From Candidatus Zixiibacteriota bacterium (GTDB lineage: Bacteria > Zixibacteria > MSB-5A5 > UBA10806), in NCBI GenBank assembly GCA_024641335.1, contig JAHEDG010000027.1:1-38151 (forward strand): DNA of 38,151 bases, given 5' to 3'. The notes beneath the pieces were generated by a model. That model was given only the letters and a program-made list of their open reading frames with translations. It was not told the origin of the DNA and searched no databases. The position numbers were made by a program, and so were the translations under genes. This document shows positions 24,502 to 32,641 of the stretch, one piece after another (the stretch's first letter is position 1; every line of letters begins with the position of its first letter).

Positions 24502-25545
24502 ATGTTCAGCAATTTGAGCGATCGGGAAAGAAGTATTCTGAAAATACTTATAGACCATTATATCTCTACGGCCGAACCGGTGGCTTCGCGGGTGATCGCC
24601 AAAAGGCATAATCTCAATCTGTCATCGGCATCGATCAGGAATACTATCAAGGATCTGGAGGAGATGGGATTGGTCAAGCAGCCTCATACGTCGGCCGGCC
24701 GGGTGCCGACCAACGAAGGGTATCGTTTATATGTAGACTATCTGCTTCGTCCGGAGCATTTGACCGAATCCGAGATAGACCGTATAAACAAGAACATTAA
24801 GAAAGATTTATCGGGGATAGACCAGATACTGGAGCAGACATCGAGGGTATTGGGAGACGTTTCCCTCCAGCTCGGGGTGACTATCGCGCCACGTTTTGAA
24901 TCGGGAGTTATAACCCGGCTGGAACTTATGCCTGTCGCCGAGAATCGTGTACTGGTGGTCATGGCCTTGAAATCGGGTTTGGCCAAGACGATACTCTTGG
25001 AGGTCGAGACCAGGCTCAAGGAGATCGAGTTGCGGGAGACGGCATCGATATTAAACGAACGGTTATGCGGATTGAGTCTGGGAGAACTGCAAACTACCCT
25101 GAAGAAACGTCTGGCCGAATCCACGAAAGGGGATCCTCGTCTTATCAAGCTATTTATCGAATCATCCGCCGAGCTTCTGAATTTTTCATCGGAATCGAAT
25201 ATTCACTGGGGGGGTACGCGGAATATTTTAAATCAGCCTGAATTCAGCGATTCGGAGAAAATCAGGGAGTTGATATCACTTATCGAAGAACGTCAGATAG
25301 TGCGTGATCTTGTCGCCCGGGCCGGGATTACCGAGGGAATAACGATCACGATCGGCGCTGAAGGGCAGTCGGAGGATAATGAGTCAGTTCAATCGGCCCA
25401 GCTTTCCATGCTGTCGTCGACATATTCTGCCGGGAAGTTCAAGGGGGTATTGGGGATAATCGGCCCGACCCGTATGCCATATTCGAAGTTGATGGGGATA
25501 GTCGATTTTACGGCCAAACGGCTTTCGCGAATTTTATCAGAATAG
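24502..25545 (+). CDS. hrcA: Heat-inducible transcription repressor HrcA
   Basis: This 347-residue repressor normally binds CIRCE operators of chaperone genes. The N-terminal winged helix-turn-helix is clear (LSDRERSILKILIDHYISTAEPVASRVIA, then SSASIRNTIKDLEEMGLVKQPHTSAGRVPTNEGYRLYVDYLL). The C-terminal part has the family's GVLGIIGPTRMPYSKLMGIVDFTAKRLS motif. It is followed by grpE, the common order. I do not see a CIRCE element in front of hrcA, grpE, dnaK or dnaJ. Confidence 0.96.
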   Translation: MFSNLSDRERSILKILIDHYISTAEPVASRVIAKRHNLNLSSASIRNTIKDLEEMGLVKQPHTSAGRVPTNEGYRLYVDYLLRPEHLTESEIDRINKNIKKDLSGIDQILEQTSRVLGDVSLQLGVTIAPRFESGVITRLELMPVAENRVLVVMALKSGLAKTILLEVETRLKEIELRETASILNERLCGLSLGELQTTLKKRLAESTKGDPRLIKLFIESSAELLNFSSESNIHWGGTRNILNQPEFSDSEKIRELISLIEERQIVRDLVARAGITEGITITIGAEGQSEDNESVQSAQLSMLSSTYSAGKFKGVLGIIGPTRMPYSKLMGIVDFTAKRLSRILSE

Positions 25546-25596: not shown

Positions 25597-26118
25597 ATGC
25601 GTGACTCGATGAAACCGAAAAAATTGCATCCCGCGGCCGAGCTGGCGGCCTACAAGACGGGATTACTGAAATCGAAAACAGAGCAGAGCGACGATGATAA
25701 ATATCTTCGTCTGGCCGCGGAGTTCGATAATTTCAAAAGGAGAACAGCCAGGCAATATTCCGAGATGGTCAGGAACGCCAACGAGGATTTGATACTGGAG
25801 ATTTTGGGAGTAGTAGATGATTTTGAGCGGGCGCTGGATTCGGTATTGTCGAATGGCGAAGAAAAGCAGGCCGAAGAATACCAGAGCATGATAGCCGGAA
25901 TGAAGCTGATTTACGGGAAGATGATGGCGGCATTGAGGACCAGGGGTGTCGAGCTAATGGACGCTCTGAATAAGCCGTTCGATCCTCATTTTCATGAGGC
26001 CGTCATGCAAACGCCATCGGAAGATAAAGACGCGGGTACGGTAATAGGTGTTGTCGCGCCGGGATATCTTCTGGGCGGCAAGGTAATCCGGCATGCCAAA
26101 GTAGTAGTGGCCGCGTAG
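25597..26118 (+). CDS. grpE: Nucleotide exchange factor GrpE
   Basis: This 173-residue co-chaperone releases ADP from DnaK. It has a charged N-terminal helix, then the family core LRLAAEFDNFKRRTARQY, and the C-terminal beta domain with FDPHFHEAVMQ and VIGVVAPGYLLGGKVIRHAKVVV. ATG 25597 is used. An ATG four codons later is also possible, since the AAGG ribosome binding site (25592-25595) fits that one better. Confidence 0.95.
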   Translation: MRDSMKPKKLHPAAELAAYKTGLLKSKTEQSDDDKYLRLAAEFDNFKRRTARQYSEMVRNANEDLILEILGVVDDFERALDSVLSNGEEKQAEEYQSMIAGMKLIYGKMMAALRTRGVELMDALNKPFDPHFHEAVMQTPSEDKDAGTVIGVVAPGYLLGGKVIRHAKVVVAA

Positions 26119-26180: not shown

Positions 26181-27083
26181 ATGGCCACGATTATTGCTGT
26201 AATGAATCAAAAGGGAGGGGTAGGTAAGACCACGACCAGTGTGAACCTGGGCTCGGCTTTGGCGGAAAAGTCATTCAAGACCTTACTGGTCGATTTGGAT
26301 CCCCAAGGGAGCCTGTCGAACTGGTTGACCGGCGATCATACCAACGGCGATTCCGGTTTGGGAGAATTTCTTTTCGGTGAGGCGGATTTCACGGATGTTC
26401 TCCGGGAATCCAATCCTTTGGGAGTGGATTATATTATAGCCGGCAACAATCTTCAGCGTCTGGCCCCCAACGGCCGTATCGATACATATACGTTGAAGAT
26501 CCGTCTGAACAGCATCAGGGATAACTATGATTTTATAATAATCGATTGTCCGTCGGCTTCGGATATTCTGATCAGCAACGCTCTTATGGCAGCGGACTCT
26601 ATATTGATTCCGATACAGACCGAGGCTATGCCATTACAGAGCGGCATCAGATTTCTGGACTGGCTGGAGAATTTCATGACCCGCAATCAGAGTTCGGTAA
26701 ATATTTTAGGAATTCTGCCCTGTATGTTCGATTCTCGCACCAGGCTTTCGGGTGTTATTCTCGACGCCATGCGTGACAGCGAAAATCTGGGGCCGCTGGT
26801 TTTCAAAACTGTGGTCAGGAAGAATGTCAGGCTGGCCGAGATGCCCGGATCGGGCAAGTCGATTTTCAAATCGGCATCAACCAGTTTCGGGGCAAACGAT
26901 TACGCCGATCTGGCCGATGAGGTATTGGAGAGAACCGGAGTAAGCGTGGAAAGTTCGATAGCGAGAATGGCCGCGGAGAGTTCCGAAAGTGAATACGAGA
27001 GTGACGATACCGGGGAACTTATCGGTTTGGAGCAGGGTTTTGAATCTCAAATAGACAAGGTTTCGGATATCGGGGAGAAATAG
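26181..27083 (+). CDS. ParA/Soj-family ATPase with acidic C-terminal tail
   Basis: This 300-residue deviant-Walker ATPase has KGGVGKTT at about residues 11-18, DLDPQGSLSNWL and IIDCPSASDILISNAL. Members position chromosomes, plasmids or protein cargo on the nucleoid. No parB is in the window, so cargo positioning is as likely as chromosome segregation. The last ~45 residues after the ATPase fold are acidic and Ser/Glu-rich. GAAAGGTG precedes ATG 26181. The selenoprotein gene begins one base after the stop, implying co-translation. Confidence 0.9.
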   Translation: MATIIAVMNQKGGVGKTTTSVNLGSALAEKSFKTLLVDLDPQGSLSNWLTGDHTNGDSGLGEFLFGEADFTDVLRESNPLGVDYIIAGNNLQRLAPNGRIDTYTLKIRLNSIRDNYDFIIIDCPSASDILISNALMAADSILIPIQTEAMPLQSGIRFLDWLENFMTRNQSSVNILGILPCMFDSRTRLSGVILDAMRDSENLGPLVFKTVVRKNVRLAEMPGSGKSIFKSASTSFGANDYADLADEVLERTGVSVESSIARMAAESSESEYESDDTGELIGLEQGFESQIDKVSDIGEK

Positions 27084-27084
27084 G

Positions 27085-27312
27085 ATGAAGATTTCTATCG
27101 AATACTGCGTTGTTTGACATTACGATCCTCAAGCCGTCGGTCTGGCGGAGGCGATAGAAGGCAGATACGGAATCAAGCCGGATTTAGTGAAATCGGGTGG
27201 AGGGGCGTTCGAGGTAAGCGCGAACGGCGATAAGATATTCTCCAAGCGCGAAACCGGCAGATTTCCCGATAACAGTGAGATATTCATGGCGATAGATAAG
27301 ATCGGGGTGTGA
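27085..27312 (+). CDS. SelW/Rdx-family selenoprotein (in-frame UGA = selenocysteine)
   Basis: Read through one TGA at 27115-27117, this frame encodes 75 residues of the Rdx (SelW/SelT/SelH) thioredoxin-like family. It opens MKISIEYCVVU, with redox motif C8-V-V-U11, followed by HYDPQAVGLAEAI and then GGGAFEVSANGDKIFSKRETGRFPDN, all family-typical. The UGA sits exactly where the second redox residue belongs. A hairpin with GGUCU in its loop follows 21 bases on. The role is probably thiol/selenol redox in the cytosol. The start is one base after parA. Ordinary gene callers would miss or split it. A pseudogene is unlikely because the downstream frame is intact. Confidence 0.9.
27127..27151 (+). 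promoter_or_regulatory. Bacterial SECIS-like hairpin
   Basis: CCTC (27127-27130) pairs with GAGG (27148-27151). After a small internal loop, GCC (27133-27135) pairs with GGC (27144-27146). The apical loop GTCGGTCT contains GGTCT at 27139-27143. The GGTC begins 21 bases after the TGA. Stem position and guanines in the loop match the bacterial SECIS plan recognised by SelB. Confidence 0.7.
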
Positions 27313-27579: not shown

Positions 27580-28380
27580 GTGTTTACTTTGGTCAGATAC
27601 GCGATAAGCGTTTTAATCTGGGTGGGGATAGCGGCCCTTCTTCTGGTTTTGGGTAAAGTAGTTTATTTGATTTTCTGGACTCTGGTCGGATTGCTGTTGC
27701 TGGTAATCTGGCTCGGCCATATGACTTATCATGTCGCCTGTTGGTTTAATCCGGATTTCAAGCCGATTAAAATTATACTCGCGTTTGCCGTAGTTTTGAT
27801 CGCGGGCCTGGCGTATTTCAAATATTTCGCGGCTCCTGTCTGGAACACCTGGGGTTCCACCAAAGAGGAAATCGAGGAACATTATAAGGCCGATGATTAT
27901 TGTCCCGACGCGGAACTGAGGACAGTGCGGACCATTGAGATAAATGTACCCAGGGATTATATTTTCGGCTGGGTTCGGCAGTTGCCCGAAGTTGATACTT
28001 ATGGTTTCGATTTTTTTGATTTCAGGGGGAAGAAGAGGTTTGAGCGGCTGGTCGAGGATCTTCCTGATTTGGAGGAAGGGGATAAGTTTTTACTGGGCAG
28101 GATTGTCGAGATCAAGAAGGGGAGGAGCATCACATTCGATATAGGTCTGGATCCGAAATTCCCTCGGCTGGGTGTAAACTGCATTTACGGGGGATATTAT
28201 TTTAGAGATATCGGGGGTGACAGAACCCGGATCAATATGGTAATGCGCGCGGATTATGACGGATTCTGGGGTTGGTTTTATTCGCAGGTGGTAATAGAAT
28301 TCGGCGATTTTTTCATCGCCTCAAAGCAGCTTTCCAAGCTCAAAAAAAGCGCGGAGAATAGTTTTAACAAAAAGGAATAG
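27580..28380 (+). CDS. Membrane-anchored SRPBCC-like protein
   Basis: This 266-residue protein begins with three hydrophobic segments (about residues 8-27, 29-48 and 63-82). A soluble region from about 105 to the end follows. The stretch NTWGSTKEEIEEHYKADDYCPDAELRTVRTIEINVPRDYIFGWVRQL and the later GRSITFDIGL strands resemble the START/polyketide-cyclase (SRPBCC) lipid-binding fold. The ligand is unknown. The start is GTG 27580 with GGAGG at 27570-27574. A small membrane protein and dnaK follow in the same direction. Confidence 0.65.
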   Translation: MFTLVRYAISVLIWVGIAALLLVLGKVVYLIFWTLVGLLLLVIWLGHMTYHVACWFNPDFKPIKIILAFAVVLIAGLAYFKYFAAPVWNTWGSTKEEIEEHYKADDYCPDAELRTVRTIEINVPRDYIFGWVRQLPEVDTYGFDFFDFRGKKRFERLVEDLPDLEEGDKFLLGRIVEIKKGRSITFDIGLDPKFPRLGVNCIYGGYYFRDIGGDRTRINMVMRADYDGFWGWFYSQVVIEFGDFFIASKQLSKLKKSAENSFNKKE

Positions 28381-28890: not shown

Positions 28891-28951
28891 TTATGAACGG
28901 GCCGTGAACGCGGCGAAAACGAATAGATATTTTAGGGAGGATTCAGATAAA

Positions 28952-30880
28952 ATGGGAAAAGTGATTGGAATCGATCTGGGAACCACCAATTCCTGCGTGG
29001 CTGTAATGGAGGGAGGCGATCCGGTAGTTATTCCAAATCCTGAAGGAGGCCGGACAACACCGTCGATCGTGGCTTTCTCGAAGGACGGTCAGAGACTGGT
29101 GGGGCAGGTAGCCAAACGTCAGGCCATAACCAATCCTGAGAACACGATATTCTCTATCAAGAGGTTCATGGGCAGACGTCATTCCGAAGTATCATCGGAG
29201 GAGAAGATAGTGCCGTATAAGATCGTAGGCGCTCCCACAGACGATTGCCGGGTCAGGGCCGAGGATAAAGAATACGCTCCTCCGGAGATATCCGCGATGA
29301 TCCTGCAATATCTTAAGAAGACCGCGGAGGATTATCTGGGATCTGAGGTCAGGCAGGCGGTAATAACAGTGCCGGCCTATTTCAATGATTCTCAACGTCA
29401 GGCGACCAAAGACGCCGGCCGGATTGCCGGTTTGGAAGTTTTGCGTATTATCAACGAGCCGACGGCGGCGGCGTTAGCTTATGGTTTGGATAAGAAGAAG
29501 GATCAGAAAATAGCGGTCTTCGATCTGGGCGGCGGTACGTTCGATATATCCATACTGGAACTCGGCGAAGGAGTATTCGAGGTTCGTTCCACTAATGGTG
29601 ACACACATCTGGGCGGGGATGATTTCGATCAGAAGATAATCGACTGGATGGCCGATGAGTTTAAGAAATCGCAGGGTATAGATCTTCGCCAGGATCGGAT
29701 GGCTCTTCAAAGGCTCAAAGAAGCGGCGGAAAAAGCCAAATGCGAGCTTTCCACGACTATGCAGACATCGTTGAATCTGCCGTTTATAACCGCCGATCAG
29801 AGCGGCCCGAAGCATCTCGATCTGACCCTCTCCCGCGCCAAGCTGGAGCAATTGGTTGACGATCTTATCGAGAGAACGGTTAATCCGTGCAAACGGGCGT
29901 TGGCCGACGCCAAACTAAACCCCTCTGATATAGACGAGGTCATACTTGTCGGGGGGATGACCCGGATGCCGAAAGTGCAGGAGGTAGTGAAGAGCCTATT
30001 CGGCCGCGATCCTCACAAAGGAGTGAACCCGGACGAGGTAGTGGCGGTCGGAGCGGCTATTCAGGGGGGTGTATTAGCGGGCGACGTGAAGGATGTTCTG
30101 TTGCTCGATGTTACGCCATTGTCTCTGGGCATCGAGACCCTGGGAGGAGTATTCACCAAGCTGATCGAGCGTAACACGACCATTCCGACGAAGAAATCAC
30201 AGATATTTTCCACTGCCTCGGACAATCAGACGGCCGTATCGATACATGTGCTGCAGGGAGAGCGGGAGATGGCGTCGCATAACCGCACTTTAGGACGGTT
30301 TGATCTGGTGGGTATTCCGCCCGCTCCGAGGGGGATTCCGCAGATCGAGGTATCATTTGATATAGACGCCAACGGGATATTTAATGTAGCGGCCAAGGAT
30401 ATGGGCACCGGCCAGGTGCAATCGATCAAGATCGAGTCATCATCGGGGCTATCCGAGAGCGAAGTGGAAAAAATGGTCAAGGACGCCGAGTCTCACGCGG
30501 CTGACGATAAGACAGCCCGGGAACTTATAGACGCCCGGAACAAACTCGATTCGGCTCTTTACCAGGTGGAAAAGAGCATGAAGGATTTCGGCGATAAGCT
30601 CACCGAAGATGATAAAAATAAGATTAAAGAGGCTATGGAGAAAGCCTCGAAAATGAAGGACTCATCCGATGCCGCGGAGATAAATAAAGCGGTGGAGGAG
30701 CTCTTTTCAGCGTCGCACAAGATGGCCGAGGAGATGTATAAGCAGCAATCGGCTCAACAGCCCGGCGCCGGCGCGGAAGCGGGCCAGGCCGAATCTCCGA
30801 CGGGGGAAAGCCAAGGGGATGACGGCGCGGTCGACGCTGATTTCGAAGTGGTCGATGAAGACGAGAAGAACAAGAAATAA
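28952..30880 (+). CDS. dnaK: Chaperone DnaK (Hsp70)
   Basis: This 642-residue ATP-driven chaperone has [18 protein letters not shown] at the N-terminus, the [14 protein letters not shown] phosphate loop, the [12 protein letters not shown] adenosine motif, and the substrate domain from about residue 390 ([26 protein letters not shown]). The tail ends in an acidic EEVD-like [18 protein letters not shown] 28952 is chosen because AGGGAGG lies at 28934-28940 and the family opening begins there; an upstream in-frame start would add 16 unrelated residues. It is followed by a strong terminator. Confidence 0.97.
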
Positions 30881-30955: not shown

Positions 30956-32641
30956 TCAATCTATGGGAGGGCAGTCGGGGCAGGGCTGCAAAGCCGAGCC
31001 GCCTTTGAGATAGGATACGCCATAGGTGATATCCAGGCCGTTGTATGAGCAGCTTCCGTTAACGTCGCCGGAAACAAACCAGGTATTCCCGGTCGGGCAT
31101 TCGCATTCGAACGCGGGAGGCGTTCCACCCTTGAAGTAAGCTACTCCGAAAGTAATATCCAACCCGTTGTAGGTATCGCTGCCGTTGACATCACCGACGA
31201 CATAATCGCAGCCCGGAGGAACGGATGGGCCAATGGTACCGTCGGGATTGATATTTTGCAGGTATATATCCCCGCTGGAATCGCCGCGTTTATCTCCCCA
31301 GACCGCGATTACTCTGACCGCTTCGGTTCCGTTGGCCGTAAAATGGATCTTTTCGCTCATAGTCGAGCAGATGGTAATAGGAGAAGGATCCCAGACCGGC
31401 GAACCGGCGCCGTCGATTTTAATGGCCTTAATGATACTATTGACTCCTCCGGTGGGAGTTTCTTCATAGACCACGATAGCGCCGTCTCCGTCTTTGAATC
31501 CGGTAGCGAAGTTGCGATCCTGATCACTCAGCGGGACAAGGGTGACGCCGTCGGTACCCCATTGAAGCGCTCCGGCGGAATTCAGTTTCTGGGCGCAGAT
31601 TCCGAATTGTGACTGATTGGTATTGGTGATTTTGTAAGTGACGATTATGTCGTTGCTTTCATATATACGCGCGAGTGAAGGGTTCATTTGGAGCTGCCCG
31701 GCGGCGGATGAGACGAGTACTCCGTTGGTTGTCCAGGCGGGTATGCCGCCGTTCGTGATATGCTGGGCGTAAACATGGTGAACGCTGTTCCTGGTATCGT
31801 ACCAGAAGGAGTACGATCCACCGGCTCCGTCGGATTTTAAATCCGGTTTCATATAAACGGCGATTCCTCCGGCAGTGGAAACAGGGACTCCGCCGCCGCC
31901 CCAGAGATCGGTTCCGATAGAATCGAATTTATGCTGATAAATATATTTGGGATTATAATAGTTCGGCCCGGAGGCGTCCAGGACCTGCAGAATAATCCCG
32001 TCATTCTCGGTCGGTACGATTCTAGGGACCGACAGTCCATAGGTCGAAGTAAGGGTAATAGTCGGCGGATCCCAGACATCCAGGCCGGAGGGAGTCAGTT
32101 TTCTTAAGTGAACCACCAAATCTTCCTGCCAGGCAATGACTATATTGCCGCTGGAGGTCACCGCGACTCGCGGATCGGGCTCGAAACCGTCATTGGCCGA
32201 GATAGTGATACCGTCGGGCCCCCAGACGAAATTTCCCGCCGGACTGATCCGATAGGCATAGATATCCCGGTCGCTGCCGTTGCGGGAATCGTTGAAGGTA
32301 AGGATAGCGTGATCGGCGCCGTCGACCGCCATATCGTAATCGGTGATCCAGGATTCCTGAATATGGTTGCTAATCAAGATTCCGTTAGCCAGCCATTGAA
32401 TCTGGCCGTCGCCATTAAGTCTTTGCAGGTAAACGTCGTAGTTGCCCGAAGCGTGATCATGCCAGCTGACGTAGCAGCCGCCGTCCGAGGTCATGCTTAT
32501 TTTTGGCAGGGTTTGTTCTCCCATGCGATCGCAGATGATTTTATTCAGCGCCGGATCGTCAGGCCATTGAGCCGAAACGGGGCCCGCGGCCATGATAATC
32601 AGCCAGGCAGGCAAACCTAACCATACTGTTTTTATTTTCAT
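30956..32641 (-). CDS. Secreted repeat protein with two C-terminal dockerin-like repeats
   Basis: This 561-residue exported protein has a signal peptide at about residues 1-24 (ending VSAQ). The body holds about seven copies of a ~60-residue repeat built on the pattern W.D.R.G..DIY...L...G...W...G..I, for example WHDHASGNYDVYLQRLNGDG. A beta-propeller fold is plausible. At the C-terminus are two calcium-loop dockerin-like repeats, GDVNGS..YNGLDIT.GV.Y.KGG, at residues 483-506 and 525-548, each next to paired cysteines. The role is unknown, probably at the cell surface or extracellular. AAGGA precedes the ATG. Confidence 0.85.
   Translation of the reverse strand: MKIKTVWLGLPAWLIIMAAGPVSAQWPDDPALNKIICDRMGEQTLPKISMTSDGGCYVSWHDHASGNYDVYLQRLNGDGQIQWLANGILISNHIQESWITDYDMAVDGADHAILTFNDSRNGSDRDIYAYRISPAGNFVWGPDGITISANDGFEPDPRVAVTSSGNIVIAWQEDLVVHLRKLTPSGLDVWDPPTITLTSTYGLSVPRIVPTENDGIILQVLDASGPNYYNPKYIYQHKFDSIGTDLWGGGGVPVSTAGGIAVYMKPDLKSDGAGGSYSFWYDTRNSVHHVYAQHITNGGIPAWTTNGVLVSSAAGQLQMNPSLARIYESNDIIVTYKITNTNQSQFGICAQKLNSAGALQWGTDGVTLVPLSDQDRNFATGFKDGDGAIVVYEETPTGGVNSIIKAIKIDGAGSPVWDPSPITICSTMSEKIHFTANGTEAVRVIAVWGDKRGDSSGDIYLQNINPDGTIGPSVPPGCDYVVGDVNGSDTYNGLDITFGVAYFKGGTPPAFECECPTGNTWFVSGDVNGSCSYNGLDITYGVSYLKGGSALQPCPDCPPID

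Follow-up and report, generated by a model that had tools for sequence, protein, structure and literature searches.

A predicted SelW-like selenoprotein gene at a fixed place beside an orphan parA in the heat-shock cluster of a Zixibacteria order

The selW-like gene and its reading frame

The window, a stretch of 38,151 nucleotides from a Candidatus Zixiibacteriota bacterium, carries a heat-shock gene cluster with the order hrcA-grpE-parA-selW-X-(Y)-dnaK-dnaJ (Table 1), in which X encodes a membrane protein without a Pfam match and parA a protein of 300 residues. Between dnaK and dnaJ, on the minus strand (30956-32641), lies a gene for a secreted-looking protein of 561 amino acids with two C-terminal dockerin-like repeats (GDVNGS...NGLDIT).

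Table 1. Features of the heat-shock cluster and of the selW-like gene, in window coordinates.
Feature	Position	Strand	Basis or remark
hrcA, heat-shock repressor	24502..25545	+	profile match
grpE	25597..26118	+	profile match
parA, orphan ParA/MinD-superfamily ATPase (KGGVGKTT Walker motif), no parB beside it	26181..27083	+	profile matches; canonical parAB elsewhere
Shine-Dalgarno-like GGGGAG	27072..27077	+	7 bases 5' of the selW ATG, within the end of parA
selW-like (Rdx family), predicted selenoprotein gene	27085..27312	+	75 aa, Sec at residue 11; profile matches
Predicted redox motif Cys8-Val-Val-Sec11 (CxxU)	27106..27117	+	sequence; kept in 104/104 loci
Predicted Sec UGA codon (codon 11)	27115..27117	+	sequence and conservation
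Alternative hairpin (CCUC/GAGG lower stem, loop UCGGUC)	27127..27151	+	RNAfold preference, window sequence alone
Predicted SECIS core, 5-bp stem CCGUC/GGCGG, loop GGUCU (27139-27143)	27134..27148	+	comparative helix and loop, energies
X, 266-aa membrane protein, order-wide neighbor downstream of selW	27580..28380	+	conservation, 29-63% identity
dnaK	28904..30880	+	named from sequence

The stop codon of parA (TAG, 27081-27083) is followed by a single G (27084) and then by the ATG of selW (27085), leaving a gap of 1 base between the two genes. The selW frame has a TGA at codon 11, followed by 64 sense codons and a terminal TGA (27310-27312); in all of these details the sequence agrees with the earlier note, which had proposed a hidden SelW/Rdx-family selenoprotein at this position. 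The GGGGAG upstream of the ATG is plausibly the gene's own putative ribosome-binding site, and purine-rich sites were also found upstream of selW in several relatives.

Read through the in-frame TGA, the translation is MKISIEYCVVUHYDPQAVGLAEAIEGRYGIKPDLVKSGGGAFEVSANGDKIFSKRETGRFPDNSEIFMAIDKIGV and passes the cut-offs of both family models, scoring 61.5 bits against Pfam Rdx (PF10262; E 9e-17, cut-off 22.6) and 55.3 bits against TIGR02174 (cut-off 34.2). This match is far beyond chance, and it bears out the CVVU motif and complete family-like body that had been noted on readthrough. In a comparison with PDB sequences, the nearest solved structure was 2ljk (Protein C17orf37; E 7e-10, residues 2-71), followed by several SelW-related proteins, with selenoprotein W itself (2npb) matching weakly (E 0.79). 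By homology to 2ljk, the product would be a small thioredoxin-fold protein.

Conservation of the UGA and the Sec-decoding machinery

A comparison set of 104 selW loci from many phyla was assembled, and in every one of them a UGA occupies the CxxU position. At closer range, selW with the TGA is present in all five genomes (5/5) of the window's family, and a relative occurs in 25 of the 132 genomes of the phylum, with the TGA in 25 of 26 matches. A scan of one genome per species across 84,980 species yielded loci from Planctomycetota, Thermodesulfobacteriota, Neomarinimicrobiota, Gemmatimonadota, and other phyla, and the 80 that were kept all have CxxU, a count in which Cys forms would be under-sampled because the query patterns favor close relatives. 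Beyond the UGA, most substitutions are synonymous (pN 0.10-0.31 versus pS 0.55-0.87), indicating that purifying selection acts on the sequence downstream of this codon. Thus, alignment with SelW-like relatives showed both the UGA and the protein body to be kept, with the random post-UGA substitutions of a decaying gene absent.

The genome to which the window belongs (2.86 Mb, 98 contigs) is rated 100% complete and contains a complete Sec-decoding set, namely selB (355 bits), selA (440 bits), selD (354 bits), and a tRNA-Sec (selC; 68.5 bits) with the anticodon UCA (TCA in DNA), all within about 10 kb on one contig (C69). The selD gene on that contig (1393-2469 of locus L018) has an in-frame TGA of its own as a Sec codon, in the motif CAGUASK, the familiar Sec form of the SelD enzyme. 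With all four genes present, the suggestion that this organism makes selenoproteins is supported. Furthermore, SelB is present in 116 of the 132 genomes of the Zixibacteria phylum.

These observations bear on two other readings of the in-frame TGA. The first is that the gene is a decaying Cys-form Rdx gene, that is, a pseudogene in which the TGA arose by chance or error. The unremarkable folding energy of the window sequence, described below, would be compatible with decay, but 104 loci from many phyla carry the TGA at this very codon, the Sec machinery is complete, and the loop and helix following the UGA are constrained at synonymous sites. As pN (dN) is well below pS (dS) after the UGA, a pseudogene is therefore excluded, and readings by chance or sequencing error are likewise ruled out by conservation of the UGA and the SECIS element in independent genomes; the probability left to decay is negligible. 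The second reading is that UGA is decoded as a standard amino acid, such as Trp. No supporting point was found for this proposal, and it is opposed by the presence of tRNA-Sec(UCA) and SelB and by the fact that selW itself ends in TGA, with relatives stopping at TAA, TAG, or TGA at approximately the same place. Such a reassignment is scarcely credible.

The hairpin downstream of the UGA

The GGUCU loop starts 21 bases past the UGA, as had been described, and the helix that carries it is borne out by covariation and by loop constraint across the family. In the family alignment, columns +17-21 after the UGA pair with columns +27-31 around a five-base loop (+22-26). In about 102-103 sequences, 92.4% of the core cells were found to be paired, versus 66.0% (sd 1.6, maximum 69.8) in synonymous controls with codons redrawn from each locus's own usage, and sliding the partners by one base lowered the pairing to 47%. 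In a set thinned to less than 85% identity, 56 compensatory cells were counted versus a maximum of 27 in 1000 shuffles, with most of the compensatory changes held by two core pairs (26 cells each); these counts are uncorrected for shared ancestry. The loop itself is nearly fixed as R-G-U-Y-U, with RGUNU occurring in 90 of 102 sequences versus 15 expected. The constraint is also visible at the codon level: of the 96 Ser/Gly codons at +8, 91 end in GT, versus 15 expected, and where the codon at +8 specifies Ser it is AGT in 74/74 cases, compared with 58 of 591 (about 10%) elsewhere in the same genes. In two ParA-linked relatives (L021 and L028), the core helix is only partly formed. Overall, the comparative data point to a SECIS element that follows the UGA family-wide.

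Energetically, the window's own sequence of this hairpin behaves differently. RNAfold preferred a shifted hairpin (-10.4 kcal/mol) over the family helix (-6.8 kcal/mol, or -7.3 kcal/mol with a three-pair extension), placing the GG two bases deeper, at positions 3-4 of a 6-nucleotide loop. The folding-energy z-score of the window sequence was +0.79, which is nothing unusual, and across the 104 loci the per-sequence energy was only modestly shifted relative to synonymous controls (mean z -1.2). A scan of the window with Rfam returned nothing at gathering thresholds. Single-sequence folding energy was rejected as uninformative evidence for a SECIS element, and the comparative tests described above were used instead. 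It is the comparison across the family, and not folding energy, that supports the hairpin. The family helix became the best fold once the sequence up to +16 was omitted; with the sequence freed from +11 to +16, other pairings were still preferred. The case of E. coli fdhF (PMC4513850) may, by analogy, be carried over to these competing folds.

In the published model of bacterial SECIS elements, the loop comprises 3-9 nucleotides with G in the first two positions and frequently a G or U next, and the hairpin lies 16-37 nucleotides from the UGA with a minimum free energy of -7.5 kcal/mol or lower (PMC13188914). The family helix in the window resembles this model in its 21-nucleotide spacing, its 5-nucleotide loop starting with GG, and its 5-bp stem, but differs from it in stability, with -6.8 to -7.3 kcal/mol falling just short of -7.5 kcal/mol and the shifted hairpin being more stable.

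On the family match, the conserved UGA, the complete Sec set, and the family-wide SECIS element, the proposal of a hidden SelW/Rdx-family selenoprotein in a Sec-decoding organism holds up well, and we assign a probability of about 0.96 to the reading that 27085-27312 is a functional SelW-like selenoprotein gene of this Zixibacteria species. By analogy with the E. coli system, SelB with GTP and Sec-tRNA-Sec would bind the hairpin 3' of the UGA, so that Sec would be delivered at codon 11 in a SelB-dependent manner. The predicted Cys8-Sec11 pair may then perform thiol/selenol redox chemistry. With this gene, a candidate phylum that almost universally carries SelB gains an almost certain selenoprotein belonging to a class often overlooked in annotation, and the relatives of the gene show that the SECIS loop of the SelW-like family (RGUYU) is both broadly distributed and sharply constrained.

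The fixed genomic place and comparison with known SelW-like systems

Ten loci of the order were sampled, from families f1 and f2, and in every one parA and selW are adjacent and followed by X, although ParA identity to that of the window falls to as low as 42% and an extra gene separates selW from X in one locus (L021). The organism groups with Candidatus Zixibacteria: the gene order recurs in candidate division Zixibacteria 4484_95 (L028), whose selW is identical to the copy in G115, a genome from the taxonomic order to which the window's genome belongs; since the selW genes of L028 and L107 are identical, about nine of the ten linked loci are independent. In the SelW tree, a branch with 82/93 support sets the ParA-linked copies apart from those of the remaining Zixibacteria, with most forks unresolved in a protein so short.

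The neighboring ParA is distinct from the genome's other ParA, which lies in a gidA-gidB-parA-parB setting on contig C97 (genes named from sequence, with a parB-like gene). At the window locus, the parB and parS expected beside parA in a ParA-ParB partition system are lacking, no parS having been found in the window at up to 3 mismatches. With the canonical parAB on C97 and no parS in the window, the ParA next to selW is to be regarded as an orphan paralogue. A plasmid origin of the parA-selW pair was considered and rejected, as PLSDB contained no similar DNA. In a further family of the same class (f17), the same type of ParA occurs without a selW match, and in 2 of 4 genomes it lies beside grpE. 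Judged by titles and occurrence counts, none of the literature joining SelW-like proteins with ParA was evidently on a ParA ATPase.

The earlier note had described selW as translationally linked to parA and had regarded the pairing with a ParA-type ATPase as unusual. The adjacency is indeed constant among the sampled loci of the order, but the 1-base gap is found in only 3 of 10 loci and is replaced by 44-72 bases in the other 7, and translational coupling is therefore at most a local feature. The pairing, likewise, has a conserved and lineage-specific place, but its setting is the hrcA-grpE-dnaK-dnaJ heat-shock cluster more than a ParA-SelW pair. SelW and the adjacent ParA might nevertheless form one functional module, in which the gap of 1 base would allow coupled translation and SelW would, for example, serve a positioning system built on the orphan ParA, either as its redox regulator or as its cargo. 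The adjacency in all sampled loci of the order despite ParA divergence, the separateness of this paralogue from the canonical parAB, and the short gap in three loci speak for such a module; the longer gaps in seven loci, the ParA without a selW match in f17, the position of selW away from ParA in the other loci examined, and the generally lineage-specific character of selW neighbors speak against it, and we consider it unlikely.

No common functional neighbor of selW was found across the 104 loci, the neighbors being lineage-specific and ParA occurring only in this order. In many Thermodesulfobacteriota loci (L045-L103, Desulfobulbales-type), selW is flanked by a recN-like gene and a divergent DtxR-like regulator. 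In other Zixibacteria families (L116, L121, L122, and L123), SelW domains are preceded by a small gene that looks like an ArsR-type repressor, and most of these domains have C-terminal extensions, reaching about 350 amino acids in L123; these may represent a metal- or arsenic-linked SelW variant.

In this Zixibacteria order, selW has been passed on in one constant position within the hrcA-grpE-dnaK-dnaJ cluster, with the orphan parA on one side and the membrane-protein gene on the other. Given this fixed place, selW is probably co-transcribed with the chaperone genes, and its product would be available under protein-folding stress. A stronger proposal is that selW belongs functionally to the heat-shock regulon, being controlled by HrcA and assisting the DnaK system as a redox helper. 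Its fixation between grpE and dnaK throughout the order is consistent with this role, but no CIRCE (HrcA-binding) site or promoter was mapped here, other lineages place SelW in other contexts, and unrelated genes also gather in housekeeping clusters; membership of the regulon is thus conceivable, if doubtful. It is considerably less probable that SelW and the orphan ParA, perhaps with the downstream membrane protein, work together in this one order as a component of the DnaK chaperone system that responds to redox state. The conserved position of selW among the heat-shock genes offers a testable lead to the role of SelW in bacteria.

Bacterial SelW-like selenoproteins have been known since a 2005 report on the Sargasso Sea (PMC1088965), and SelW-like is among the listed known selenoprotein families (PMC13188914). 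An epsilonproteobacterial SelW has also been described, and such genes are often missed by annotation (PMC4607533); the gene in the window is genuine and has probably been missed by standard annotation. The best-scoring NCBIfam model was NF041051 (SelTWH_Campy, SelT/SelW/SelH family (seleno)protein), with 82.2 bits under a curated cut-off of 88, placing the protein outside that equivalog. It resembles the SelW-like bacterial selenoproteins of PF10262/TIGR02174 in its length, in CxxU near the N-terminus, in the FEV...KIFSK and GRFP elements of its body, and in a predicted SECIS hairpin directly after the UGA. Thus, the window SelW is a further member of an already well-known family, differing from other SelW-like genes only in its fixed and mildly interesting location in the hrcA-grpE-dnaK cluster, where it is flanked by an orphan parA and a membrane-protein gene.
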